Part shown: positions 4,174 through 26,252 of the stretch, one piece after another
Layout: every line of letters starts with the position of its first letter
Numbering within the stretch: position 1 is the first letter of the stretch
Assembly (NCBI GenBank): GCA_017859295.1
Contig: JAFMNI010000001.1
Coordinates: 1-33,679 of the forward strand
From: Candidatus Puniceispirillum sp.
GTDB lineage: Bacteria; Pseudomonadota; Alphaproteobacteria; Puniceispirillales; Puniceispirillaceae
Direction of reading: 5' to 3'
DNA: 33,679 bases
Notes under the pieces: generated by a model
What the model was told of the DNA's origin: nothing
Databases searched by the model: none
Seen by the model: only the letters and a program-made list of their open reading frames with translations
Made by a program: the position numbers and the translations under genes

Positions 4174-7100
4174 CTAAGCAACCGCATTATCACGGATTCT
4201 TTCGGCTGTCTGAAGATCAACGGAAACCAATTTCGAGATGCCGCGCTGTTCCATGGTGATGCCGAAAAGCCGATCCATGCGCGCCATTGTCATGCGGTGA
4301 TGCGTAATCACCAGGAATCGGGTGTCAGTCTGGTCACAAATATCACGCAAAAGATCACAGAATCGAACCACATTCGAATCATCAAGCGGGGCATCCACCT
4401 CATCAAGAACGCAAATCGGCGCCGGATTCGTCAAAAAGACGGCAAAAATTATCGCCAGCGCGGTTAGCGCCTGTTCACCGCCCGATAAAAGCGACAGTGA
4501 TTGAAGGCGTTTACCCGGTGGGCTTGCCAGAATCTCAAGCCCAGCCTCAAGTGGATCATCGGCATTGGTCAGCTGTAATTCCGCCGTGCCGCCACCAAAC
4601 AGCTTTTTGAATAGCCGTTTGAAATGCTCATTCACGTCGCCAAAGCTTTTCAAAAGACGTTCGCGGCCTTCACGGTTCAATTGGCTGATCGCCGCGCGTA
4701 ACTTGCCAATGGCGGCAATCAAATCATCACGTTCGGTTTCCATGCTGGTGATGCGCGTTGCCACATCTTCCATTTCCGCTTCGGCGCGCAAATTGACAGG
4801 GCCGATATTATCGCGCTCGCGGATCAGGCGATGAACACGCTCTTCCAGAACATCAATACTGGCAAGCGCCTCGCCATCTTCGATGCCAGCAATTTCGGCA
4901 ACATCTTTTGGCGCACAATTCAATTTATCCGCAATGCGGTCTTTTAATTCGGCAAGGGAGGCATTGCAGCGTTCTTCGCCAGCTTCGGCGCGGATTTGGG
5001 TTTCACGCGCTGTCGCAAGGGCATTATCAGAATCGCGTTGCAGTGATTCGGCCTCGGCAAGGCTGGTTTCGGCAAGCCGAAGCGCATCCGCCGCATCTTG
5101 ACGATTCTGTTCGGCAATTTCCAGCCGATCACCAATCTCAAGACGCTGTTTGGCGATGGTTTCGGGAAGCGTTTCCAAACGGTGCTGTTCTTGATTGCCG
5201 TCAATCAGGCGTTTTTCCAATTCGGCAATGCGGCCGCTTGCGCCGTCAAGACGTTGCTGCCATGCGCTTGCTTCCTGATTACAGCTTGATTGGCGGCGGG
5301 TCGCCGTGCCAACCAGATCGGCGAGGCGTGATTCGGCCTGCATCGCCTCGGCAAGGGCAGTGCGTGATGTTTCGGCAGCGTTTCGAGCCGCCACTTCGCC
5401 AGCGGCAAGGGCGGCATCATCGGCAAGCCCCGCAATTTCAACCTCGCAATTTGCCAGACTGGTGGCTAATTCATCAAGGCTGGTATTTAGCTCGGCCGCC
5501 CGGTCGCGCCCTGCGGCCAGTTTCAAGGCGTCGGATTCAGCGCGGCGGCGGCTGTCACCAAAAGCCTGTTCGGCCTGCATGCTGGCACTACGGCAAGATT
5601 GAACATGCTCACGCGCGGCAATAAGCGTTGTTTCGCTGGTGCTGGCGATGGCACCGCTTTGATCCAGCTTTTGACCAGCCTTTGCCGCGTCATCTTGCAG
5701 AGCGTCAAGGCGGCGACGCTGGCGGATACGCTCGGCGCTTTTGTCAGATTGATTGGCATGGCGTACAAAACCGTCCCAACGCCAAAGACTGCCCGATTTG
5801 GTGGCAATGGCTTGGCCGGGAAGAAGGCTGAATTGCAAGGCTTCGGCTGTCGATGCGTCATCAACCACCCCAACACCGGCAAGTGACGCTGCCAGTGCTG
5901 GTGCCCCTGTTACAAAATCGGCAAGCGGCATCGTGCCATCTGGCGGGGACAGGCTGGCCTTGCTGCCTTCGCGCCAAAACCCCTGATTGCCGCTGCCAAC
6001 CGGTGCCGCTAATTCATCTGCAAGATAGCCGGCAAGTGCGGTTTCCATGCCATCACTGACCGAAAGCTGATCAGCAATTGGCGCAGCATCATGGTCGCCA
6101 AGATCGGCCAGAAGATATTGTAGCGCGTCAATTTCCGCCTGAAGGCGAGTCATGTGCGATTCGCTGTCACGTTTGGCATTCAGCGCAGATTCGGCAGCAG
6201 CATTCGCATCGGTGAGGGTTTGTTCGGCTGTTTCCAAGGCTGATTTGGCCGCCATGAAATCGGCTTCGGTTTCTCGTTTGGCCTGATCTGACTGGCTGGC
6301 CTCGGCAAGCAGGGTTTCAAGCGACAATTGCGCTAGCGCGGCATTTGCCGATTGAATACGATTTTCGATATCCTGTTTGCGGCTGGCCAAACTATTGCGG
6401 GTGGTCGCAGCGGCGCGAAGAGCGGCGCTAGCCTCGGCAAGGTTGGCCTCATTCTGGCTTGCGGTCAGGCGTGCCGCCTCTAAAACATCTTTCGCCGCAG
6501 CCTGTTTCGGGCTGGCTTCGGCAATTTGAACGGCTAGGGATTCGGCTTCATCGACAAGCCGCGCAACGGCTGATTTTGCATCATCAAGAAGGCTGGTTTC
6601 GCGGGCGATATCTTGGGTAAGCTGGTTTTGCCGGTTGGCAAGCTGGGTCAGGGCATCGGTAACACGCGCCTCTTCACGATCCAATTCTTCGCGGCCAAGC
6701 GCCAAGCGTTGATATTCGGCGGCTTTTTCGGCCTCGCTTGCCCGCAGGGGCGGAAGCGATGCGGCAATCTCGCTTCGGGCGGTGGCGCAACGGGCGGCAA
6801 TTTCGGCACGCGCGCCAACATCTAATTTGGCTGCACCAAGCGCCGCGGTGGCGGCATCGCGATCCTGTTCAGCGGCCATCCAGCGAGCAAGAAGGAATTG
6901 TGCTTCGGCTTTACGAATGCGATCGGCAACTGACCGGTAACGTGCCGCTTGGCGGGCTTGTTTACGCAAGGAATCACGCTGTTCGATCAGACCGGCGATG
7001 ACATCATCAAGCCGTTCAAGATTGGTTTCGGCGGCGCGAAGCCGTAATTCGGCCTCATGTCGTCGCGCGTGTAATCCGCGAATATTTGCCGCTTCTTCGA

Positions 7101-7590
7101 TCAGGGTTCGCCGGTCAACGGGTTTGGCACCAACAATCGCGCCAATGCGTCCCTGACTGACAATGCCGGATGATCGCGCGCCGGTGGCGGTATCGGCAAA
7201 CAGCAATTGCACATCACGCGCCCGCGCCGGTTTGGCATTCACATAATAGCTGCTGCCTTTGCCGCGCTCAATTTTGCGGGTGATTTCCAATTCATCAACA
7301 TCATTGAATTCGGCAGGGGCTTGGCGATGACGGTTATCAAGCTGAAGGGTGATTTCGGCAAGATTGCGCGCGGGGCGCTGTTCGGTGCCGCCAAAAATCA
7401 CATCATCCATTTCGCCGCCACGCATTTGGCGCGCCGAGCTTTCGCCCATAACCCAGCGAAGCCCCTCAACGATATTGGATTTGCCACAGCCATTTGGCCC
7501 GACAATGCCTGTTAGGCCGGAATCAATCTCAACCTCGGCGGATTCCGCAAAGGATTTGAATCCGGCCATTTTCAGGCTTCGAAAAATCAC
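4174..7590 (-). CDS. smc: Chromosome segregation protein SMC
   Basis: 1138-residue chromosome-organising ATPase. The Walker A is GPNGCGKS (31-38). The Q-loop region carries VSQGRIGAIVGAKP, followed by a long coiled coil. A hinge domain lies around residues 490-650. A second coiled coil leads to the C-terminal ATPase half, with signature LSLLSGGEQ (about 1032-1040) and Walker B VLDEVDAPLDD (about 1061-1071). The start MIFRSLKMAGFKSF is the usual one for this family. The dsbA-like gene lies 31 bp upstream on the same strand. The alanine-rich arms are normal for the lineage. It acts as a homodimer, usually with ScpA and ScpB, which are not in this window. Confidence 0.97.
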   Translation of the reverse strand: MIFRSLKMAGFKSFAESAEVEIDSGLTGIVGPNGCGKSNIVEGLRWVMGESSARQMRGGEMDDVIFGGTEQRPARNLAEITLQLDNRHRQAPAEFNDVDELEITRKIERGKGSSYYVNAKPARARDVQLLFADTATGARSSGIVSQGRIGAIVGAKPVDRRTLIEEAANIRGLHARRHEAELRLRAAETNLERLDDVIAGLIEQRDSLRKQARQAARYRSVADRIRKAEAQFLLARWMAAEQDRDAATAALGAAKLDVGARAEIAARCATARSEIAASLPPLRASEAEKAAEYQRLALGREELDREEARVTDALTQLANRQNQLTQDIARETSLLDDAKSAVARLVDEAESLAVQIAEASPKQAAAKDVLEAARLTASQNEANLAEASAALRAAATTRNSLASRKQDIENRIQSANAALAQLSLETLLAEASQSDQAKRETEADFMAAKSALETAEQTLTDANAAAESALNAKRDSESHMTRLQAEIDALQYLLADLGDHDAAPIADQLSVSDGMETALAGYLADELAAPVGSGNQGFWREGSKASLSPPDGTMPLADFVTGAPALAASLAGVGVVDDASTAEALQFSLLPGQAIATKSGSLWRWDGFVRHANQSDKSAERIRQRRRLDALQDDAAKAGQKLDQSGAIASTSETTLIAAREHVQSCRSASMQAEQAFGDSRRRAESDALKLAAGRDRAAELNTSLDELATSLANCEVEIAGLADDAALAAGEVAARNAAETSRTALAEAMQAESRLADLVGTATRRQSSCNQEASAWQQRLDGASGRIAELEKRLIDGNQEQHRLETLPETIAKQRLEIGDRLEIAEQNRQDAADALRLAETSLAEAESLQRDSDNALATARETQIRAEAGEERCNASLAELKDRIADKLNCAPKDVAEIAGIEDGEALASIDVLEERVHRLIRERDNIGPVNLRAEAEMEDVATRITSMETERDDLIAAIGKLRAAISQLNREGRERLLKSFGDVNEHFKRLFKKLFGGGTAELQLTNADDPLEAGLEILASPPGKRLQSLSLLSGGEQALTALAIIFAVFLTNPAPICVLDEVDAPLDDSNVVRFCDLLRDICDQTDTRFLVITHHRMTMARMDRLFGITMEQRGISKLVSVDLQTAERIRDNAVA

Positions 7591-7621
7591 ATTAACAACC
7601 TGTCATTAGTGACGTCTGAAA

Positions 7622-8257
7622 TCAGGCGTCCGTTGCATTTATCTTGGCAGCAAAATCTTCATATGACAGATCGCCAGAAATGATGGTTTTGTCATTGACC
7701 ACAAAAGATGGTGTCGATTGTATTTCCCAGCTTTTATAGGCTTTTTGACGCATTTCAACAATCGCTTCAAGAAGAGGCCTATTACCCATAACGGCGTCAA
7801 AATCGGCGGCGCTCATTCCGGCAAGCCGCGCCATTTGCGACAAGGCGGCAAGCGGATCCGGATTGCGCGCCCAGCGATCAATATCTTTCAACAGCATCGA
7901 AATCATTGGGAAATATTTATTTTTTGGCAAAGCCCGTGCCAGCGCATGGCCGCGAAGCGCAATTTGATCAAGCGGGAAGGGCTGCATCTCAAACCGCACC
8001 ATGCCAGTGTCAATCAACCGTGTTTTCACATTGGGAAAGGTGTTGTTGTGAAAGCTGGCGCAATGCGGACAGGTCATTGAAAATAATTCAACAACTTTGA
8101 TCGGGGCATCACCCTTGCCAAGAACGCGCGGTGAGGTCACATGCGCGATCGTTGGCTCAAGGGCAAAGGCAGCGGTTGGCAAAAGCGATATCGCAGCACC
8201 CCCCAGCAGGATAGCGCGGCGATCAAGGGCGAAATTCATTTGGTTTTGTTTCATCAT
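7622..8257 (-). CDS. DsbA-family thiol:disulfide oxidoreductase, exported
   Basis: 211 residues. A thioredoxin-fold domain carries the active site CPHC (63-66) in FSMTCPHCASFH, and a cis-proline loop STPSFVV near the end. The N-terminus has paired arginines (DRRAILLGG, R13-R14), a hydrophobic stretch and an AFA|LEP cleavage-like site. Export, possibly by the Tat route, is therefore likely. Starts: a TTG at 8275 is possible; the tandem ATGs at 8257 and 8254 are preferred, though no strong ribosome site is seen for any. The family oxidises or isomerises periplasmic cysteines. Location between smc and dciA is a common alphaproteobacterial arrangement. Confidence 0.85.
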   Translation of the reverse strand: MMKQNQMNFALDRRAILLGGAAISLLPTAAFALEPTIAHVTSPRVLGKGDAPIKVVELFSMTCPHCASFHNNTFPNVKTRLIDTGMVRFEMQPFPLDQIALRGHALARALPKNKYFPMISMLLKDIDRWARNPDPLAALSQMARLAGMSAADFDAVMGNRPLLEAIVEMRQKAYKSWEIQSTPSFVVNDKTIISGDLSYEDFAAKINATDA

Positions 8258-8353
8258 GGGGCAATCATAATCCAAGGGGAAAAGCGGGGCAATGCACGAT
8301 TTTAGGACAATAGCATTTAATTTGGGCGTCGATCCTTTGTCTGATCTTTTGCG

Positions 8354-8851
8354 CTAATTCTTTGCGCCTTCATCTTCGCCAACCGGCCCGCCTAGCCGCC
8401 GAAGCGCCGCGCGCAGTTCGGGTGATTTGATATGTTTCAGTTTTTCATCAAGCGTCCAAATATCAGGCGCATCCGAAATTGTAGCCGGTTTTTTGGGCGG
8501 CGTTTTGGGGGTTGATGGTGGCAAATTCTGCACAAGGGTGATGCGGCCAACAGCCTGATATCCAAAGGCGGCATTTACCTGATCAATGATTTGGGCTGAC
8601 ATGGCCTGGGCTTGGGGGCCGCGGCCCGAGGCGATTTGCAATTTCAATGTTCCGTTATTGCGGCTGCCACGCGGAAAGTGAATATCTGCCGGTCGGCACC
8701 ATGCAGCCGTATCACCAACAATATCATGCCAATGCGAAATAAGGCGGCTAATCGCAAAACCACGCTCGTTCGCCGATGGCGCGACCATAGGTTCGATCAT
8801 GGTCGATAGCCGCCGCATTTTATTTAATCGGTTTTTGGGCGGTTTCACCAT
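8354..8851 (-). CDS. DciA-like DUF721 protein (helicase loader/associated factor)
   Basis: 165 residues beginning MVKPPKNRLNKMRRL. The N-terminal half carries the DUF721 pattern: ISRLISHWHDIVGDTAAWCRPADIHFP (quoted in parts: HWHDIVG, then a W-C-x-P stretch) and then LKLQIASG. The proline-rich linker (PPSTPKTPPKKP) and short C-terminal helical segment (LRAALRRLGGPVG) resemble alphaproteobacterial members. DciA-type proteins interact with replicative helicase DnaB in bacteria lacking DnaC/DnaI; assignment of that role here is by family. The frame is open back to 8986, but the longer start runs into the mutY upstream region. A strong Shine-Dalgarno is lacking for either. Confidence 0.78.
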   Translation of the reverse strand: MVKPPKNRLNKMRRLSTMIEPMVAPSANERGFAISRLISHWHDIVGDTAAWCRPADIHFPRGSRNNGTLKLQIASGRGPQAQAMSAQIIDQVNAAFGYQAVGRITLVQNLPPSTPKTPPKKPATISDAPDIWTLDEKLKHIKSPELRAALRRLGGPVGEDEGAKN

Positions 8852-9025
8852 GATTTGCTGTGCCGGTTCAATTGTTTGTTGATGAATAAGAATAAAGGGT
8901 TTTGGGCGACTTGACCCAATTACCGAATACACTAGCATGACCGATCCCTGTTGCAAAATATGCCAAATAAAAAGATAGACATTCACAACGCCAAATCAGT
9001 TTTTCGGATAACAGGATATAATCGC

Positions 9026-10132
9026 GTGGGTAACAATAAATCGCAAACATTCCCAACGGCCGCTTTGTTTGGATGGTATGACAAGCATGGTCGCGATTTA
9101 CCATGGCGTCGCCGCTGGCCAGATTTAGCCCCTGCCTATCATGTTTGGCTGTCGGAAATCATGCTTCAGCAAACCGTTGTGGCAACGGTGATTCCCTATT
9201 TTCTCGATTTTACCCGCCGCTGGCCAACCATCAATGATCTTGCCTCAGCACCGCTTGATGATGTGTTGGCGGCATGGGCCGGCCTTGGCTATTACGCCCG
9301 CGCGCGCAATCTGCATAAAGCGGCGGTGATGGTGGCGACTGAATGGGGCGGACAATTTTCCGGTGATCATCGCCATGCCAATGATGTTGCTGATTTGCGC
9401 GCTCTTCCGGGGGTTGGCCCCTATACTGCCGGTGCGATCGCTGCCATCGCGTTTGGCCAGCAGGCTGTAGTTGTTGATGGTAATATCGAACGGCTGTTCA
9501 GCCGCTATTTTGCGATTACAACCCCGCTACCAGCGGCCAAAACCGAAATTGCGGCTGCCTATGCGGCTATTTTGCCGGTTGATCGCCCATCGGATTGGCC
9601 GCAAGCCTTGATGGATTTTGCCAATGCGGTCTGCACACCGAAACAGCCGCTTTGTGATGGCTGCTGTTTTGCCGAATCATGTCAGGCTTTGGCGCGCGGT
9701 TTGGTTGATCAATTGCCGGTCAAGCCGGTCAAAACACCCAAGCCGGTTCGGCGGGCGATTGCCTTTGTGGCGGTCAATGATCAAGGCGAAATATTTTTGC
9801 ACCGCCGCCCCGATAAAGGGCTTCTTGGCGGTATGCTAGCCTTTCCTGAAATTGGCCTTGCGTCAAAACAGGCGGATCAAAATCTTGATCAGACAATGGC
9901 ACCATTTGCCGCTGATTGGGTTTTGCGCGATGAACCTGTTTTGCATGTTTTTACGCATTTTGCGCTTGAGATGAAAATTTGCCTTGCCAGCATTGAGGGG
10001 ACACCGCAACCAATCATAGATGATATCAAAGGCCATTGGGCAAAGCCGCGTCCAGCTGATTTGCCAAGCCTGATGCGTAAAATATGGAAAGCCGCCGCGG
10101 CAATGCCGTTACCGCCACATGCCAGCCGCTAG
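9026..10132 (+). CDS. mutY: A/G-specific adenine glycosylase MutY
   Basis: 368 residues. Removes adenine mispaired with 8-oxoguanine. Visible features: WYDKHGRDLPWR near the start; catalytic glutamate E44 in LSEIMLQQT; helix-hairpin-helix LPGVGPYTAG (about 127-136); catalytic aspartate D151 in VVDGNIERL; [4Fe-4S] cysteines C203, C210, C213, C219 (C-x6-C-x2-C-x5-C). A NUDIX-like C-terminal domain for 8-oxoG recognition follows (about 240-365). I prefer the GTG at 9026 because AGGA lies 9 nt upstream (9013-9016) and the N-terminus then has family length. An ATG at 8960 and TTG at 8951 are alternatives. It is divergent from dciA. Confidence 0.95.
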   Translation: MGNNKSQTFPTAALFGWYDKHGRDLPWRRRWPDLAPAYHVWLSEIMLQQTVVATVIPYFLDFTRRWPTINDLASAPLDDVLAAWAGLGYYARARNLHKAAVMVATEWGGQFSGDHRHANDVADLRALPGVGPYTAGAIAAIAFGQQAVVVDGNIERLFSRYFAITTPLPAAKTEIAAAYAAILPVDRPSDWPQALMDFANAVCTPKQPLCDGCCFAESCQALARGLVDQLPVKPVKTPKPVRRAIAFVAVNDQGEIFLHRRPDKGLLGGMLAFPEIGLASKQADQNLDQTMAPFAADWVLRDEPVLHVFTHFALEMKICLASIEGTPQPIIDDIKGHWAKPRPADLPSLMRKIWKAAAAMPLPPHASR

Positions 10133-17344: not shown

Positions 17345-18052
17345 ATGTCAGATACATATCAGATTGATGAAAATAGTTTTCAACCGATAGATGGCGAGCG
17401 TCTACGCAACTCTGAACAAGTAAGCCACAAGCCAAAGGTGCTTCTTTTATATGGCTCTTTGCGAGAACGCTCATTTAGCCGGCTAATGACCGAAGAGGCT
17501 GCGCTCGTTTTATCCAAGCTAGGGGCTGAAACAAAAACATTTAATCCAACTGGACTGCCGTTACCGGATGATGCTGAACCAACACATCCTAAAGTTGCCG
17601 AGCTTCGAGATTTAGTCAGTTGGAGTGAGGCAATGGTTTGGTGTTCCCCTGAAAGGCACGGCGCAATGACCGGCATAATGAAAGCGCAAATTGACTGGAT
17701 TCCGCTGTCTCTTGGCGCTGTCCGCCCGACACAGGGCAAGGTCTTGGCGGTTATGCAGGTTAATGGAGGTTCACAAAGCTTCAACGCGGTTAACCAGATG
17801 CGGATATTGGGGCGTTGGATGCGGTGCGTAACCATCCCAAATCAATCGTCAGTGCCAAAGGCATTTCAACAGTTTGATGAAAATGACCGAATGAAGCCAT
17901 CGGCATTTTACAACAGAATGGTCGATGTGATGGAGGAGTTGATGAAATTCACACTATTGACCCGTTCTTGTTCAGATTATCTTACGGATAGATATAGCGA
18001 GCGTGTCGAAACGGCGGAAAAACTTATCGCCCGTGTCAACGCCACTGATTGA
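17345..18052 (+). CDS. arsH: ArsH-type NADPH-dependent FMN reductase / organoarsenical oxidase
   Basis: 235 residues with the flavodoxin-like fold of ArsH. The FMN phosphate loop is GSLRERS (37-43). The conserved [17 protein letters not shown] and [21 protein letters not shown] regions and the [17 protein letters not shown] block are diagnostic. ArsH oxidises trivalent organoarsenicals to the less toxic pentavalent form. No arsR, arsC, arsB/acr3 or arsM is in the window, so it stands alone. Leucine codons TTA, CTA and CTC are more frequent than in neighbouring genes, and the flanks are AT-rich and gene-poor. Both points hint at lateral acquisition. The ATG at 17345 has only a weak upstream AGAAAG. 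Confidence 0.93.
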
Positions 18053-20483: not shown

Positions 20484-21188
20484 ATGGCTGATGAAGATGA
20501 AATTATCCTAGCTGATTTGGACGATGATGAACTTGTCCAGCAGATGCATGACGACCTTTATGACGGCATGCAGGATGAGATTGTTGAAGGTGTCAATATT
20601 CTGCTTGAGCGGGGTTGGACACCTTATGAGGTTTTGACCAAAGCGCTTGTCGAGGGCATGACGATTGTCGGCATTGATTTCCGCGATGGTATTTTGTTTG
20701 TTCCCGAAGTCTTGATGGCAGCGAATGCGATGAAGGCTGGCATGGGTATTTTGCGGCCGTTGCTTGCTGAAACAGGCGCACCACGGGTTGGCACGATGGT
20801 GATCGGCACGGTCAAGGGTGATATCCATGACATTGGCAAAAACCTTGTTTCGATGATGCTTGAAGGTGCTGGTTTTGACGTGATTGATCTTGGGATCAAT
20901 AACCCGGTCGAAAACTATCTTGATGCGCTGGAAAAACACAAACCCGATATTTTGGGCATGTCAGCCCTTTTGACAACAACAATGCCTTATATGAAAGTTG
21001 TTGTTGATGCGTTGGTCGAAAAAGGAATCCGTGACGATTATATCGTTCTTGTCGGCGGCGCGCCGTTGAATGAGGCCTTTGCCGAATCAGTTGGTGCCGA
21101 TGCCTATTGCCGTGATGCGGCGGTTGCGGTGGAAACAGCCAAGGAAATGATCAAGGCTAAATTGGAACGTGAAAAAGCAGCTGGCTAA
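20484..21188 (+). CDS. Corrinoid (B12-binding) protein of a methyltransferase system
   Basis: 234 residues. The N-terminal helical cap domain (about 15-100, EIVEGVNILLERGWTPYEVL, FVPEVLMAANAMKAG) covers the cofactor. The Rossmann domain carries the B12 signature D113-I-H115-D-I-G118 in GTVKGDIHDIGKNLV, then GMSALLTTTMP and LVGGAPLN. H115 should be the lower cobalt ligand. This is the MtbC/MtmC/MttC-like type that shuttles a methyl group between a substrate methyltransferase and an acceptor enzyme. Start: ATG at 20484, 6 nt after AGGA; the ATG at 20478 directly abuts that site and is unlikely. The DUF1638 gene overlaps its 3' end by 20 bp. Confidence 0.95.
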   Translation: MADEDEIILADLDDDELVQQMHDDLYDGMQDEIVEGVNILLERGWTPYEVLTKALVEGMTIVGIDFRDGILFVPEVLMAANAMKAGMGILRPLLAETGAPRVGTMVIGTVKGDIHDIGKNLVSMMLEGAGFDVIDLGINNPVENYLDALEKHKPDILGMSALLTTTMPYMKVVVDALVEKGIRDDYIVLVGGAPLNEAFAESVGADAYCRDAAVAVETAKEMIKAKLEREKAAG

Positions 21189-21783
21189 ATCGGAACAGCC
21201 AGCACGCCTACAGATCATTGCTTGTGGGGCGTTGGCGCGTGAATTGCTGGTGCTGATCGATCAATTGCCGGATGGCGCGGTTGCCTTAACCTGTCTTCCG
21301 GCATCTTGGCATAATCACCCTGAAAAGATTGTCCCTGGCGTCAAACGGAAAATTGCGGCTGCCCGTCGTGCCGGAATGGATATTGCCGTTGCTTATGGTG
21401 ATTGTGGCACGGGTGGCGCGCTTGATCACCTTCTTGAGGCGGAAAATATCCCCCGTATCGCTGGGCCGCATTGTTATGAGATGTTTCTTGGCAAACCCGA
21501 ATTTGACGCCGAAATGGAAACCGCGCTTGGCACGTTTTTCCTGACCGATTACATGGTTCGCCATTTTGAACGGATTGTGATGAAAGGCATGGGGCTTCGC
21601 CAGCACCCGCAATTGCGCGACATGTATTTTGCGCATTACACGCGGGTTCTTTATATTGCCCAAACCGAATCTGAATCGCTTCAGGAAAAGGCGCGCCAAG
21701 CGGCAATCGAACTTGGGCTAGACTACGAGTATCGCTATACAGGCTATGGTGATTTTAACGGATTTTTACACAAGCTGGCGTGA
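21169..21783 (+). CDS. DUF1638 protein of the corrinoid gene cluster
   Basis: 204 residues, cytoplasmic (no signal or membrane segment). Its conserved-looking elements are rich in cysteine and histidine: IIACGAL (C19), CLPASWHNHPEKI (C42, H48, H50), YGDCGTGGALD (C79) and GPHCYEMF (H101, C102). These could bind a metal or contact a corrinoid. The family has no established function that I know of, but it recurs beside corrinoid methyltransferase genes in methanogens and Alphaproteobacteria. It begins at GTG 21169 inside the end of the corrinoid-protein gene. This overlap suggests translational coupling and a functional link. Confidence 0.85.
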   Translation: MKKQLAKSEQPARLQIIACGALARELLVLIDQLPDGAVALTCLPASWHNHPEKIVPGVKRKIAAARRAGMDIAVAYGDCGTGGALDHLLEAENIPRIAGPHCYEMFLGKPEFDAEMETALGTFFLTDYMVRHFERIVMKGMGLRQHPQLRDMYFAHYTRVLYIAQTESESLQEKARQAAIELGLDYEYRYTGYGDFNGFLHKLA

Positions 21784-21830
21784 GATAAGCACATAATCTC
21801 AAGCATGGTATTTTTCAAAGGAGCGCCGTG

Positions 21831-22145
21831 ATGGCAAATCTGATTACCCTTTATTGGCGCGATATTCCGGCGCAGGTGATTGCCGAGCGCGGCCGTGGCC
21901 GCCAGCGTGAGCAGGCCAAGGTTGAATTGCCACGGCGCTTTTCAATTGCCATTGACGCGGCAGCGATGCGCGATGGTGCAGATTCGACCGATGATTATCT
22001 TGCTGAATGGCGACGCTCAGAGCCAGCGCCATGTGGTGAAGATCTTGACGCCGAAGCGGCAGCGCATGCGGCGGCGCTTGATGCCGAATATACGGCTGAT
22101 CGCGTTCGGGCATTGGTGGAAAATGGTGGTAAGGCCGCCGAGTAA
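21831..22145 (+). CDS. Small PF13769-like ('virulence factor' domain) protein in the C1 operon
   Basis: 104 residues. The N-terminal half, ITLYWRDIPAQVIAERGRG then KVELPRRFSIAIDAAAM, resembles the domain named 'virulence factor' in databases (shared with the C-terminus of CvfC). A Trp-containing acidic middle (DDYLAEWRRSEP) follows. No catalytic motif is seen. The domain name comes from other organisms and should not be read as a pathogenicity claim. Ribosome site AAGGAG (21818-21823) is 7 nt from the ATG at 21831; an overlapping GTG at 21828 would be 4 nt away. It lies between DUF1638 and the reductase gene, so a role in the corrinoid pathway is inferred. Confidence 0.75.
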   Translation: MANLITLYWRDIPAQVIAERGRGRQREQAKVELPRRFSIAIDAAAMRDGADSTDDYLAEWRRSEPAPCGEDLDAEAAAHAAALDAEYTADRVRALVENGGKAAE

Positions 22146-22263
22146 GGCATCTTAAGCGCGGATCAGTCTGACGATGTCGTAATCGGCAAATTGTAAGACG
22201 TTGGCAAGCCATCTTGTTTCGGATCAAGCGGCCATTCTGCCCAGCATTAGGTCAATGGAAATT

Positions 22264-22301
22264 AGCGTGAACCCTGCCAGCGTGAACCCTGCCAGCGTGA
22301 A
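22264..22301. repeat. 15-bp tandem repeat in the leader of the MTHFR-like gene
   Basis: Two identical 15-bp units (AGCGTGAACCCTGCC at 22264-22278 and 22279-22293), plus the first eight bases of a third. They lie 32 bp before the chosen start at 22333. They are in frame with the gene and would encode repeated NPASV if an upstream start were used. Confidence 0.88.
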
Positions 22302-22332
22302 TGGGGTGAAGATGGGTAAAATGAGGATTGAT

Positions 22333-23238
22333 ATGACAGCGAATATCCAACAGATCCAGCAAGCAGCGCAAGGGTGGTCAATCGAGGTAACGCCAGCAGG
22401 TGCCACTAAAATTGACAGTTTTGCCGCTTGTCTTGCACCTGAAACGACCGTCAATGTCACCTTTCTGCCCGGAACCGACCCGATGGACACCGTGGCGGTC
22501 ACAAAGCGGTTGCATAATGAAGGCATGAAAGCGGTACCACATCTAGCCGCACGTTCGTTAAAAGATGTCGATCAACTTGATGGGTTGCTTGCCGCTTACC
22601 GCGCCGAAGCTGGCGTCGATGAGGTTTTGATCATTGGCGGCGGTGTCGACAAGCCGGTTGGCGCATTTGATAATTCAATGCAGATTCTGGAAACCGGTCT
22701 GTTGCAAAAACATGGCATCATGCGTGCCGGTGTTGCAGGCCATCCCGAAGGCAGTCCTGATATCAGCGATCTTGAAATTGCCGATGCGCTTGCCGCCAAA
22801 AATGCCTTTGCCAAACGCGAAGGGATGAAGCTTTACATCGAAACACAATTCTGTTTCGAGGCACCAATTGTGTTGGATTGGGAAAAGCGCGTTCGCGCTG
22901 CGGGCAATGAATTGCCAATTCGGATTGGCATTCCGGGGCCAGCAACGATCAAAACGCTGTTCCGCTTTGCCCAAATTTCTGGGATTGGCCCGTCAATGCG
23001 ATTTATTTCAAAACAGGCGCGCAATGTCGCAAAATTGATGACCGTTCAATCGCCGCATATGCTGTTATCTGACTTGGCATATGGCATGGCGCATGATCCT
23101 GATTGCCTTATTGAACATTTCCATTTTTACCCGTTTGGCGGATTTGGGAAAACCGCTGCCTATGCGAATGCAATTGCGGCAGGCGATATCCAGCTTTTGC
23201 CCAAAGGCGGGTTTGACGTTATCGGCACCGCGGCCTAA
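22333..23238 (+). CDS. Divergent methylenetetrahydrofolate reductase-like protein
   Basis: 301 residues, single TIM-barrel flavoprotein domain related to MetF. The N-terminal SIEVTP (E18) occupies the place of the catalytic FEFFPP glutamate of MetF. VPHLAARS matches the HLTCR-type strand. GVAGHPEGSPD (133-143) is a strong family mark, as are TQFCFEAP and GIPGPATIKTL. In this cluster the likely direction is oxidation of methyl-THF to methylene-THF; the electron acceptor is unknown. The frame is open to 22201, but the ATG at 22333 has TGAGGA 5 nt upstream, and the extra N-terminus would be the tandem repeat. Named MetF-like only, because biosynthetic MetF is usually encoded elsewhere. Confidence 0.85.
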   Translation: MTANIQQIQQAAQGWSIEVTPAGATKIDSFAACLAPETTVNVTFLPGTDPMDTVAVTKRLHNEGMKAVPHLAARSLKDVDQLDGLLAAYRAEAGVDEVLIIGGGVDKPVGAFDNSMQILETGLLQKHGIMRAGVAGHPEGSPDISDLEIADALAAKNAFAKREGMKLYIETQFCFEAPIVLDWEKRVRAAGNELPIRIGIPGPATIKTLFRFAQISGIGPSMRFISKQARNVAKLMTVQSPHMLLSDLAYGMAHDPDCLIEHFHFYPFGGFGKTAAYANAIAAGDIQLLPKGGFDVIGTAA

Positions 23239-23264
23239 GGTGGCGGCATTCTTAGGAGCATTTT

Positions 23265-24167
23265 ATGACAAAGACCCTTATTTCGTCGCATAAGCAGGAA
23301 ATCACCATCGGCTTTGACTCGCCATTTTGTGTCATTGGCGAGCGCATCAACCCAACCGGACGCAAGCTTCTTGCCGCTGAAATGGCCGCTGGCGACTATT
23401 CGCGCGTTCTGTCTGATGCATTGGCACAAGTCGAGGCGGGTGCCACGATGCTTGATGTGAATGCTGGCATTCCGATGGCGGATGAGCCGGCCATTCTTGC
23501 CAAGGCCATTCAGCTTGTTCAAGAGGTGGTTGATGTGCCGCTGGCGATTGACAGTTCAATCGTTGCCGCGCTTGAGGCTGGCTTGTCTGTTTATAAAGGC
23601 AAGCCGCTGGTCAATTCGGTAACGGGTGAAGAAGAACGTCTGGAAGTTGTTTTGCCGCTTGTCAAAAAATATGGCGCGGCTGTTGTGGCGATTTCAAATG
23701 ATGAAACCGGCATTTCCGAAGATCCAAATGTGCGTTATGAAGTTGCCAAGAAAATCGTCGAACGTGCCGCTGATTACGGCATCCCGCGTGAAGATGTTGT
23801 TGTTGATCCATTGATCATGCCGGTTGGTGCCATCAATATGGCTGGCCGGTCAGCGCTTGATCTGATCATTCGTCTTCGCAACGAATTAAAGGTGAATACA
23901 ACTTGTGGCGCGTCAAATATTTCGTTTGGCCTGCCTAACCGTCATGGGATGAATGCCGCGTTTCTGTCAATGGCAGCGGGGGCGGGAATGACCTCGGCAA
24001 TTATGAACCCGCTTCACGCCGAAGAAATGACTGGCATCATGGGCGCGAATGTGATGAACGGAAATGATCCAGAATGTCGTCGTTGGATTCAAAAATTCCG
24101 CGAACCTGTTGTGCCAGGTGAAGGTGGGCGCGAACGTCGCCAGACTCGCCGCCGCCGCAACGCTTAA
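23265..24167 (+). CDS. Methyltetrahydrofolate:corrinoid methyltransferase (MeTr/AcsE-like, pterin-binding)
   Basis: 300 residues with the dihydropteroate-synthase-like TIM barrel of methyl-THF:corrinoid methyltransferases. Pterin-site elements in order: IGERINPTGRK (24-34), MLDVNAG (D64, N66), IDSS (D96), NSVTGEE (N117), DPLIMPVGA (D181) and CGASNISFGLPNR (N218). It should move methyl groups between the corrinoid protein and THF; in this operon probably corrinoid to THF. It is longer than typical AcsE, with a C-terminal tail of arginines (GGRERRQTRRRRNA). Ribosome site AGGAG is 6 nt before the ATG. Followed after 24 bp by the activator gene. Confidence 0.93.
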   Translation: MTKTLISSHKQEITIGFDSPFCVIGERINPTGRKLLAAEMAAGDYSRVLSDALAQVEAGATMLDVNAGIPMADEPAILAKAIQLVQEVVDVPLAIDSSIVAALEAGLSVYKGKPLVNSVTGEEERLEVVLPLVKKYGAAVVAISNDETGISEDPNVRYEVAKKIVERAADYGIPREDVVVDPLIMPVGAINMAGRSALDLIIRLRNELKVNTTCGASNISFGLPNRHGMNAAFLSMAAGAGMTSAIMNPLHAEEMTGIMGANVMNGNDPECRRWIQKFREPVVPGEGGRERRQTRRRRNA

Positions 24168-24191
24168 CCGTCGCAAATTGGTGGCAAGGTG

Positions 24192-26252
24192 ATGAGCAAA
24201 AGCAAAGGTGAAGCTGCCACAACATCCGATAAGGCAGCCACTGATCAGGTGAAAGTGGTGTTTACCCCATCTGGCCGGCAAGGGTATGTTCCAGTTGGAA
24301 CGCCGGTTTTGACCGCGGCACGCCAGCTTGGTGTCGATATTGACTCGGTATGTGGCGGACGGGCCATGTGCGGCCGCTGTCAGGTCGATGTTGGCATTGG
24401 TGAATTTGCCAAACATGGTTTGAAATCGGGTGCTGATCATCTGGCTGCGGTAACGGCTGTTGAAACCCGATATGCCGACAAGCGCGGCATGATTGATGGG
24501 CGGCGATTGTCTTGTCAGGCAAAATTACTAAATGATGCGGTGATTGATGTTCCGCCTGAAAGTCAGGTTCATAATCAACTTGTTCGCAAAGAGGCCGATG
24601 GCCGTTCAATCGAAATGGACCCGATTGTGCGTTTGTGTTTTGTCGAGGTGCGCGAACCCGACATGCATGAACCATCAGGCGATTTACGCCGCCTGATCGA
24701 AGCCTTAGAGGGGCAATGGCCAGATCGTGTGACGGGTGATATCACTTGTGATCTACATGTTATCCAGCGGTTACAGCCGGTTCTGCGTCAAGGTAAATGG
24801 CATGTAACAGTGGCGCTTCGTGACGGGCACCAGATTGTGGCCATTTGGCCCGGCCTGAAGGACCAGATTGCCGGTGTTGCCATTGATGTGGGGTCGACCA
24901 CCATGTCGGCGCATCTGTGCGATATGGTCACTGGTACGGTGCTGGCCTCAACCGGGGCGATGAATCCGCAAATCAGATTTGGTGAGGATTTGATGAGCCG
25001 CGTCTCATACGGCATCATGAATCCGGGCGGTGCGGCCGAAATGACCAAGGCGGTGATTGCCGGATTGCAAACGCTGATTGATGGTGCGGCAAAACAGGCT
25101 GGCTTGAGTGGTGAAGATATTGTCGAGCTGGTTTTGGTTGGCAATCCGGTGATGCATCACCTTCTTCTTGGCATTGATCCGGTTGAGCTGGGCGGGGCGC
25201 CTTTTGCCTTGGCGGTTGATGCGGCGATGGATGTTCGGGCGGCTGAATTAGGCCTTGCCATTAATCCGGGTGGGCGGGTTTATATCCTGCCATGCATTGC
25301 TGGTCATGTTGGGGCTGATGCGGCGGCTGTGGTGCTTGCCGAAGCGCCGCAAAAGGCCGATGAAATGACCTTGATCGTTGATGTTGGCACCAATGCCGAA
25401 ATCGTTGTTGGCAACAAGGATCGTCTGTTAGCGGCATCATCGCCAACCGGCCCTGCTTTTGAGGGTGCGCAAATTTCATCAGGACAGCGCGCCGCGCCGG
25501 GGGCGATTGAACGGATTCGCATTGACAAGGACACGCTTGAGCCAAAATTCCGCGTTATCGGTGTTGATCTTTGGTCGGATGAAGATGGGTTTGATGCGGC
25601 GGTTGAAAAAACCGGTGTGACCGGCATTTGCGGATCGGGAATCATCGAGGTGCTTGGCGAGATGTATCTTGCTGGAATCATCACGATGGATGGGGTGATT
25701 GATGGCAGCAAGGCGGCGCAAAATAGCCGGATCGAAGCTGATGACCGCACCTTTTCCTATCGCATTACCGATACGGTTAGCGTGACGCAAAATGATGTTC
25801 GGGCAATCCAGCTTGCCAAGGCCGCGCTGTATGCAGGGTTCCGCCTGTTGATGGATAAAATCAATATTCGCAAGGTTGACCGTGTTGTTTTGGCCGGGGC
25901 GTTTGGCACGCATATTGACCCGAAATATGCGATGGTTTTGGGCATGATTCCTGATTGTTTGCTGGCCAATGTGCGGGCGGCAGGCAATTCAGCCGGTGCG
26001 GGGGCGCGGATGGCCTTGTTGAATCAGGCGGCGCGCCGCGATATTGAAGCGGTTGTCAGGCAGATTGAAAAAATTGAAACAGCGGTCGAAGCGTCATTTC
26101 AAGACCATTTTGTCAAGGCAATGGCGATTCCACATAAAAGCGACCCCTATGCCAATCTGGCAGCGGCAGTTGATTTGCCCGTAAGGATTCTGACAGATGA
26201 AGATGCACCGGCGCTGGCGGGTGGCAGGCGTCGCGGCGGGCGGCGACGCTAG
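24192..26252 (+). CDS. Corrinoid reductive activator with [2Fe-2S] and ASKHA domains (RACo-type)
   Basis: 686 residues. The N-terminal plant-type [2Fe-2S] domain has C54-x5-C60-x2-C63 (CGGRAMCGRC) and C108. A linker domain (about 130-225) follows. The DUF4445/ASKHA ATPase domain shows AIDVGSTTMSAHL (phosphate 1), MNPQIRFGEDLMSRVSYG, GNPVMHHL, IVDVGTNAEI (397-401), ICGSGIIEV (480-483) and VVLAGAFGTHI. Such enzymes use ATP to return accidentally oxidised Co(II) corrinoid to Co(I). It resembles RACo more than RamA, whose clusters are C-terminal [4Fe-4S]. The tail is arginine-rich (GGRRRGGRRR). Start: ATG 24192, with an overlapping GTG at 24189; the ribosome site (AAGG) is very close, so the start is slightly uncertain. 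Confidence 0.92.
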   Translation: MSKSKGEAATTSDKAATDQVKVVFTPSGRQGYVPVGTPVLTAARQLGVDIDSVCGGRAMCGRCQVDVGIGEFAKHGLKSGADHLAAVTAVETRYADKRGMIDGRRLSCQAKLLNDAVIDVPPESQVHNQLVRKEADGRSIEMDPIVRLCFVEVREPDMHEPSGDLRRLIEALEGQWPDRVTGDITCDLHVIQRLQPVLRQGKWHVTVALRDGHQIVAIWPGLKDQIAGVAIDVGSTTMSAHLCDMVTGTVLASTGAMNPQIRFGEDLMSRVSYGIMNPGGAAEMTKAVIAGLQTLIDGAAKQAGLSGEDIVELVLVGNPVMHHLLLGIDPVELGGAPFALAVDAAMDVRAAELGLAINPGGRVYILPCIAGHVGADAAAVVLAEAPQKADEMTLIVDVGTNAEIVVGNKDRLLAASSPTGPAFEGAQISSGQRAAPGAIERIRIDKDTLEPKFRVIGVDLWSDEDGFDAAVEKTGVTGICGSGIIEVLGEMYLAGIITMDGVIDGSKAAQNSRIEADDRTFSYRITDTVSVTQNDVRAIQLAKAALYAGFRLLMDKINIRKVDRVVLAGAFGTHIDPKYAMVLGMIPDCLLANVRAAGNSAGAGARMALLNQAARRDIEAVVRQIEKIETAVEASFQDHFVKAMAIPHKSDPYANLAAAVDLPVRILTDEDAPALAGGRRRGGRRR

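Follow-up and report, generated by a model that had tools for sequence, protein, structure and literature searches.

The window analysed here, a 33,679-nucleotide stretch of a Candidatus Puniceispirillum sp. assembly (GCA_017859295.1, contig JAFMNI010000001.1), has closest relatives labelled Candidatus Puniceispirillum and SAR116. It carries an operon at 20484-26252 whose genes encode, in this order, a corrinoid protein (MtgC), a DUF1638 protein, a PF13769 protein, a methylenetetrahydrofolate reductase (MTHFR)-like protein, a methyltransferase (MtgD) and a RACo-like activator. This is the known MtgBCDE-type split methionine synthase and glycine betaine demethylase of a SAR116 bacterium. MtgD ends in ...GEGGRERRQTRRRRNA and the activator in ...GGRRRGGRRR, and it is with these arginine (Arg)-rich tails that we are concerned. 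The initial annotation had pointed them out; both are present in the sequence as it described them, and they exceed chance expectation. We interpret them, with a probability of roughly 0.6, as electrostatic docking tags by which unrelated enzymes of marine and soil Proteobacteria would meet one shared partner, MtgC.

Arginine-rich protein ends in the operon and its relatives

We scored a C-terminal end as tailed if any 12-residue window of its last 35 residues held at least five Arg. The ends came from two partly overlapping sets of 30 and 40 loci in relatives, together with 80 named loci; from 190 genomes sampled across the class, of which 35 have MtgD; and from a phylum-wide set of 299 genomes, of which 31 gave a match. 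Frames open at a contig end, alignments stopping short of the C-end (before query position 255 for MtgD and 600 for the activator), weak matches and identical last-35 residues (the same species was often present twice) were left out. The initial annotation had proposed checking the tails in orthologues, and they are widely conserved there: pooled over all loci, a tail was scored at 110 of the 114 distinct ends of MtgD and at 96 of the 100 of the activator (RACo), and in the phylum-wide set at least five Arg in 12 residues were found in 27 of the 28 MtgD tails listed. Both tails were kept across SAR116 and other Alphaproteobacteria, and occurred also in two metagenome-assembled genomes labelled Gammaproteobacteria and on one betaproteobacterial plasmid. 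Among the four activators below threshold, one (L132) had an end rich in Lys and Arg, two (L199 and L218) had Arg runs followed by further residues, and the last (L214) had none. The four MtgD misses include L227, a fused protein; this and L226, relatives of the methyltransferase (MeTr) on clostridial plasmids, proved to be MetH-like fusions that have no tail and do not belong to a split system. The MtgD counts may include an apparently frame-shifted second copy (L197 8032-9231), from a locus in which two MtgD-like copies stand in tandem (7017-9231), the second with an odd C-end.

Differences in the MtgD tail codons among 17 near relatives were mostly synonymous (856 synonymous against 183 non-synonymous over 120 pairs, which are not independent), indicating that the protein sequence of the tail is being kept. 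What the tails conserve is composition, not letters. Mean pairwise identity fell from 0.78 in the MtgD core to 0.50 in the tail, and to 0.28 there once pairs of identical Arg were removed, while all 39 MtgD tails compared contained at least five Arg; a fixed sequence motif was accordingly rejected. An AlphaFold2 model of MtgD (39 sequences) had a mean predicted local distance difference test (pLDDT) score of 87, with residues 286-300 below 50, and in it the tail is predicted to be disordered and free. The solved chains of MeTr homologues 4o0q, 2yci and 1f6y stop 8, 1 and 6 residues past the last aligned position, and that of RACo (3zyy) stops 9 residues past it; the SAR116 activator continues for 37, Arg tail included. 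We take these structural homologues, and those of MtgB and the corrinoid protein considered below, to derive from anaerobes.

Under the same threshold, no tail was found at the distinct C-ends of MtgC (0/64), the MetF2-like reductase (0/71), the DUF1638 protein (0/51) or the PF13769 protein (0/87), nor at the C-ends of MttB, the demethylase family that includes MtgB (0/43). The initial annotation had named two observations that would refute it, loss of the tails in close orthologues and the same tail on many unrelated proteins of the genome. In a 400-kb sample of a complete genome of the same genus, only 3 of 315 proteins passed, none with six or more Arg, and one of the three we take by sight to be ribosomal protein S12; with the conservation described above, neither refuting observation was made.

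The initial annotation had placed the tails on two adjacent enzymes. Both do carry them, but the description was too narrow, and confinement of the Gly-Arg feature to MtgD and the activator was rejected: it is also present at the N-end of MtgB/MttB and at the C-end of MtgE, whose genes lie outside the operon and outside the window. An Arg/Gly N-terminus on MttB was first noticed in locus L072. All four MttB-family paralogues of the window's own assembly, of which one is encoded at 48744-50246 of the contig that holds the window, have such an N-terminal tail, which in one is rich in Arg and Lys rather than in Arg. At least five Arg were found in 37 of 43 distinct MttB N-ends of a first set, and an Arg-rich N-end was seen in the majority of another 40 paralogues belonging to deeply diverged subfamilies; several of the diverged proteins fail the strict rule because their ATG falls inside or after the tail. 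Starts were set by rule, taking either the closest ATG at a given distance upstream of the core or the most distant one within 70 residues, and the N-end counts depend on this rule: with the strict rule, 59 of 76 pooled MttB/MtgB N-ends held at least five Arg and 65 at least four, and with the looser rule 72 held at least four. N-ends of the other families were negative under the strict rule (MtgD 0/112, RACo 0/92, MetF2 0/79, MtgE 0/14) and almost so under the looser one, which reads upstream of the gene (MtgD 3/112, RACo 1/92). Set beside the C-end counts, these values indicate that the tail-bearing end is specific to each family. The solved MtgB chain 9yce starts five residues ahead of SAR116 position 43; an exception among the solved homologues is Sinorhizobium meliloti MttB (4yyc), which matches the tail of the L224 MttB over the aligned stretch. 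Separately, a Halomicrococcus MttB (L368) was seen with neither a tail nor a visible corrinoid partner.

If the tail marks the partners of MtgC, MtgE would be expected to have one and its paralogue MmuM would not. For MmuM, the methyl donor is S-methylmethionine and no corrinoid protein is involved. Of the two, sorted by a short sequence string and the best phmmer query rather than by activity, MtgE passed the tail threshold in 17 of 19 distinct C-ends (the other two are rich in Lys and Arg) and MmuM in 0 of 9. A tail on MtgE and none on its corrinoid-independent paralogue argue that possession of a tail distinguishes the enzymes that have to meet MtgC. The idea came from PMC12478193, and the family search preceded sight of any such end; the prediction was written down after the result. 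The window's own assembly encodes one MtgE-type and one MmuM-type protein.

Three paralogous alphaproteobacterial operons (L348, L349 and L351), distinct from the Mtg system, have another corrinoid protein together with its own MeTr and RACo-like activator; tails were found on 0 of 3 MeTr proteins and 0 of 3 activators (the highest value was 4 Arg in 12, in L349), and their corrinoid proteins have no comparable acidic start (that of L348 is poorly defined). Paralogous operons with another corrinoid protein are thus without both the tail and the acidic start.

The acidic start of MtgC and the docking interpretation

The N-terminus of MtgC reads MADEDEIILADLDDDELVQQMHDDLYDG. With the alternative start, its first 36 residues have a net charge of -14 and the whole protein one of -24 (isoelectric point 4.26), which bears out the description of this end as very acidic in the initial annotation. 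Among 66 distinct starts of MtgC, net charge over residues 1-22 ranged from -4 to -11, with 65 of the 66 at -6 or lower. In an AlphaFold2 model of MtgC (33 sequences; mean score 88), residues 1-3 fell below 50, residues 1-10 averaged 65 and the first long helix spanned residues 14-26; the acidic stretch is thus predicted to be a loose end leading into the first cap-domain helix. Alignments of the corrinoid proteins 1y80, 4jgi, 7xcn and 3ezx begin after the first 17-21 residues of SAR116 MtgC, and by extrapolation their chains begin at about MtgC positions 13-19. A charge opposite to that of the tails was found in the partner MtgC alone. A strong MtgC match (E value below 1e-90) was present in 35 genomes of the class-wide set and single-copy in 34 of them, and MttB was often multi-copy (at most seven candidates were scored per genome), so MtgC looks like a hub with many clients. 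The window's own assembly has a single MtgC and a single MtgD.

As we envisage it, this single MtgC would exchange methyl groups or electrons with no fewer than seven enzymes: the four MtgB/MttB demethylases, MtgD (which would serve tetrahydrofolate), MtgE (homocysteine) and RACo (re-activation). The short, disordered, cationic tail of each enzyme would loosely bind MtgC at its acidic N-terminal stretch and first helix, so that the enzymes would be locally concentrated around MtgC with no single fixed pose. Such weak electrostatic tethers could let partners exchange quickly and would speed methyl transfer. The tails themselves, their conserved composition, their near-restriction to MtgC partners and the acidic start of MtgC are observed features of these proteins. 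That MtgC is acidic and itself tail-less speaks for its direct pairing with the tails over binding of the tails to another polyanion.

Several observations weigh against this interpretation. Binding to another polyanion would be an equally valid reading of the charges. One activator (L214) has no tail, and the MtgD tails are weaker in L224, L228 and L291 (S. meliloti, Paracoccus and one more genome). The initial annotation had proposed to check whether the tails correlate with the acidic N-terminus; they do so in presence and absence but not in size, as tail charge did not covary significantly with the acidic charge of MtgC (Spearman -0.21, p 0.10 for MtgD; 0.13, p 0.30 for RACo; n 63). Its proposal of the corrinoid protein as the common acidic partner is well supported by the pattern, with tails on MtgB and MtgE and none on the operon neighbours, MmuM or the paralogous systems, but not by size covariation. 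The clearest exceptions are two distant MttB proteins, L350 1178-2959 and L353 2971-4629, which stand beside another corrinoid protein and keep Arg-rich N-ends; those corrinoid proteins have no clear acidic extension. Both genomes also carry MtgC, which these MttB proteins might still use. A third distant MttB beside another corrinoid protein (L354) is without a tail. Lastly, Bmt, the MtgE of Phaeobacter inhibens, is reported to be active alone in vitro (PMC12366255), so MtgE need not be an obligate client of MtgC.

Other explanations would account for the tails without MtgC. Gathering of the enzymes on RNA, DNA, polyphosphate or ribosomes fits their composition, and the Gly-Arg runs look like the RG/RGG-type tails that bind nucleic acids. 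The hub MtgC should then carry a tail as well, whereas none of its 64 distinct C-ends does and its other end is acidic; nor would there be a reason for the MetF2, DUF1638 and PF13769 proteins of the operon to be left out, and we consider this explanation unlikely. A hub could instead be another protein of the system, such as the PF13769 protein, linked to it by operon position, or the DUF1638 protein, which mutant fitness ties to it through a reported need in methionine synthesis in P. inhibens (PMC5764234). In the window, however, neither is strongly acidic at an end (DUF1638 protein, net -2; PF13769 protein, net -6 with its first 36 residues basic), and the DUF1638 match is missing beside many operons that still have tails, which makes such a hub very unlikely.

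The tails might also serve solubility, stability or membrane association and have no specific partner; disordered charged ends are common in general. That they are restricted to a single functional set of enzymes, on unrelated folds and at different termini, against a background of 3 in 315, and that the MtgE paralogue MmuM has none leave this quite unlikely in our estimate. As to compositional drift, by which Arg and Gly would arise by chance at GC-rich protein ends, the tail codons are indeed mostly GC-rich CGN and GGN. Tail charge nevertheless shows no rise with GC (correlation -0.26 for MtgD and -0.26 for RACo), the tails persist in genomes of 32-40% GC, there with some added Lys, and operon neighbours in the same genomes are without tails. 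Chance and GC drift, for which we see practically no room, were rejected on these grounds together with the genomic background.

Returning to docking on MtgC, a bolder version of it, which we hold tentatively and at somewhat less than even odds, is a client code: acquiring a short Arg-rich tail, at whichever terminus, would turn an enzyme into an MtgC partner, and electrostatic attraction through the tails would stand in for the covalent linkers found in MetH. If so, a cell could connect further demethylases, in the form of MttB paralogues specific to different osmolytes, to a single carrier with no need to evolve new interfaces, and genome scans for such tails would reveal further clients. 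The tails bear on the question of how numerous methyltransferases, together with an acceptor and an activator, can share one corrinoid protein, in a pathway that its discoverers report to be highly expressed across the ocean (PMC12478193). They would allow sequence-based prediction of clients and might guide the design of multi-enzyme systems built around a shared carrier.

Operon genes and genome context

Coordinates of the operon features are collected in Table 1. The best NCBIfam models for the corrinoid protein are those of MtgC/MtbC, with scores under cut-off: the marine protein misses the curated cut-offs of the anaerobe MtgC models (211 versus 370 bits for NF047996 and 177 versus 310 for NF047995), and marine MtgC is described as a different branch from anaerobe MtgC (PMC12478193). 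The activator matches all four Pfam models above cut-off (2Fe-2S ferredoxin, linker, middle and C-terminal ASKHA domains) and the AcsV model NF040756 under its cut-off.

Table 1. Features of the mtg operon in the window
Feature	Position	Strand	Basis and remarks
MtgC-type corrinoid protein (CoP)	20484..21188	+	Pfam B12-binding and B12-binding_2; alternative ATG 20478
MtgC residues 1-36, acidic N-terminal stretch (putative docking site)	20484..20591	+	Net charge, AlphaFold2, homologue alignments
DUF1638 protein	21169..21783	+	PF07796; no Arg tail, in-operon control
PF13769 'Virulence_fact' small protein	21831..22145	+	PF13769; no Arg tail, in-operon control
MetF2-like methylenetetrahydrofolate reductase	22258..23238	+	PF02219; start uncertain; no Arg tail, in-operon control
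MtgD, methyltetrahydrofolate:corrinoid protein methyltransferase	23265..24167	+	PF00809; NCBIfam NF005719 above cut-off
Arg-rich C-terminal tail of MtgD, residues 287-300, GGRERRQTRRRRNA	24123..24164	+	Sequence; conserved; disordered in model
RACo/RamA-like reductive activator of corrinoid protein	24192..26252	+	PF14574, PF17651, PF17650, Fer2; GTG start 24189 possible
Arg/Gly C-terminal tail of activator, residues 677-686, GGRRRGGRRR	26220..26249	+	Sequence; conserved

The assembly holding the window (1.84 Mb, 94% complete) has separate genes for the corrinoid protein, the pterin methyltransferase, MttB and the homocysteine module. No fused MetH-sized match was found in it, an absence that its 94% completeness leaves uncertain; the matches were to single domains, in open frames of 238, 351 and 330 amino acids. 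About 70% of MtgBCDE carriers are reported to be without a fused classical MetH (PMC12478193). By homology with Ruegeria pomeroyi, the SAR116 system would act on glycine betaine and homocysteine.

Some further observations concern the neighbourhood. The PF13769 protein recurs regularly in this B12 methyl-transfer operon, and its family name, 'Virulence_fact', looks misleading. The DUF1638 gene adjoins mtgC here, and many related operon loci have no DUF1638 match alongside. Upstream of the operon, an ArsH-type FMN reductase is encoded at 17345-18052 (TIGR02690 above cut-off). In genome AG-447-A06 (L082/L039), the activator gene is split into forward and reverse pieces, probably an assembly or amplification artefact.

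Comparison with known systems

The closest counterparts are MtgBCDE of R. pomeroyi, reported to be a methionine synthase as well as a glycine betaine demethylase (PMC12478193), and the split methionine synthase, or split MetH, of P. inhibens (PMC5764234). Their modules are those of SAR116, which is named among the mtgC carriers (PMC12478193): a corrinoid protein, a pterin methyltransferase, MttB, a homocysteine module, a RamA-like activator, DUF1638 and MetF2 (PMC12478193, PMC5764234). In a term search, the words 'arginine' and 'tail' were absent from the main text of PMC12478193, and neither tails nor a docking mechanism is described for the two systems in the consulted parts of these reports (PMC12478193, PMC5764234). 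More widely, no description of the tails as a shared mark was found in searches of an open-access library, a scope outside which most subscription papers lie.

Fused MetH performs the same chemistry with homologous modules, which are covalently joined in MetH and separate proteins in SAR116; the tails may replace its linkers. In the MtaBC/MttBC systems of Methanosarcina, the methyltransferase likewise docks on the corrinoid protein, and an extra N-terminal domain of MtaC helps to hold MtaB, a precedent for docking through that end of a corrinoid protein; those systems, however, rely on one dedicated pair and a folded interface rather than on many clients with disordered cationic tails (PMC9842639). 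The SAR116 activator shares its domains throughout with the RACo/AcsV and RamA activators (3zyy and 4c1n). With RG/RGG-type tails, the Mtg tails share a Gly-Arg composition and predicted disorder; unlike them, they sit on metabolic enzymes with an acidic protein partner in common. The enzymes themselves are known, and what may be new is the tails as their shared mark.

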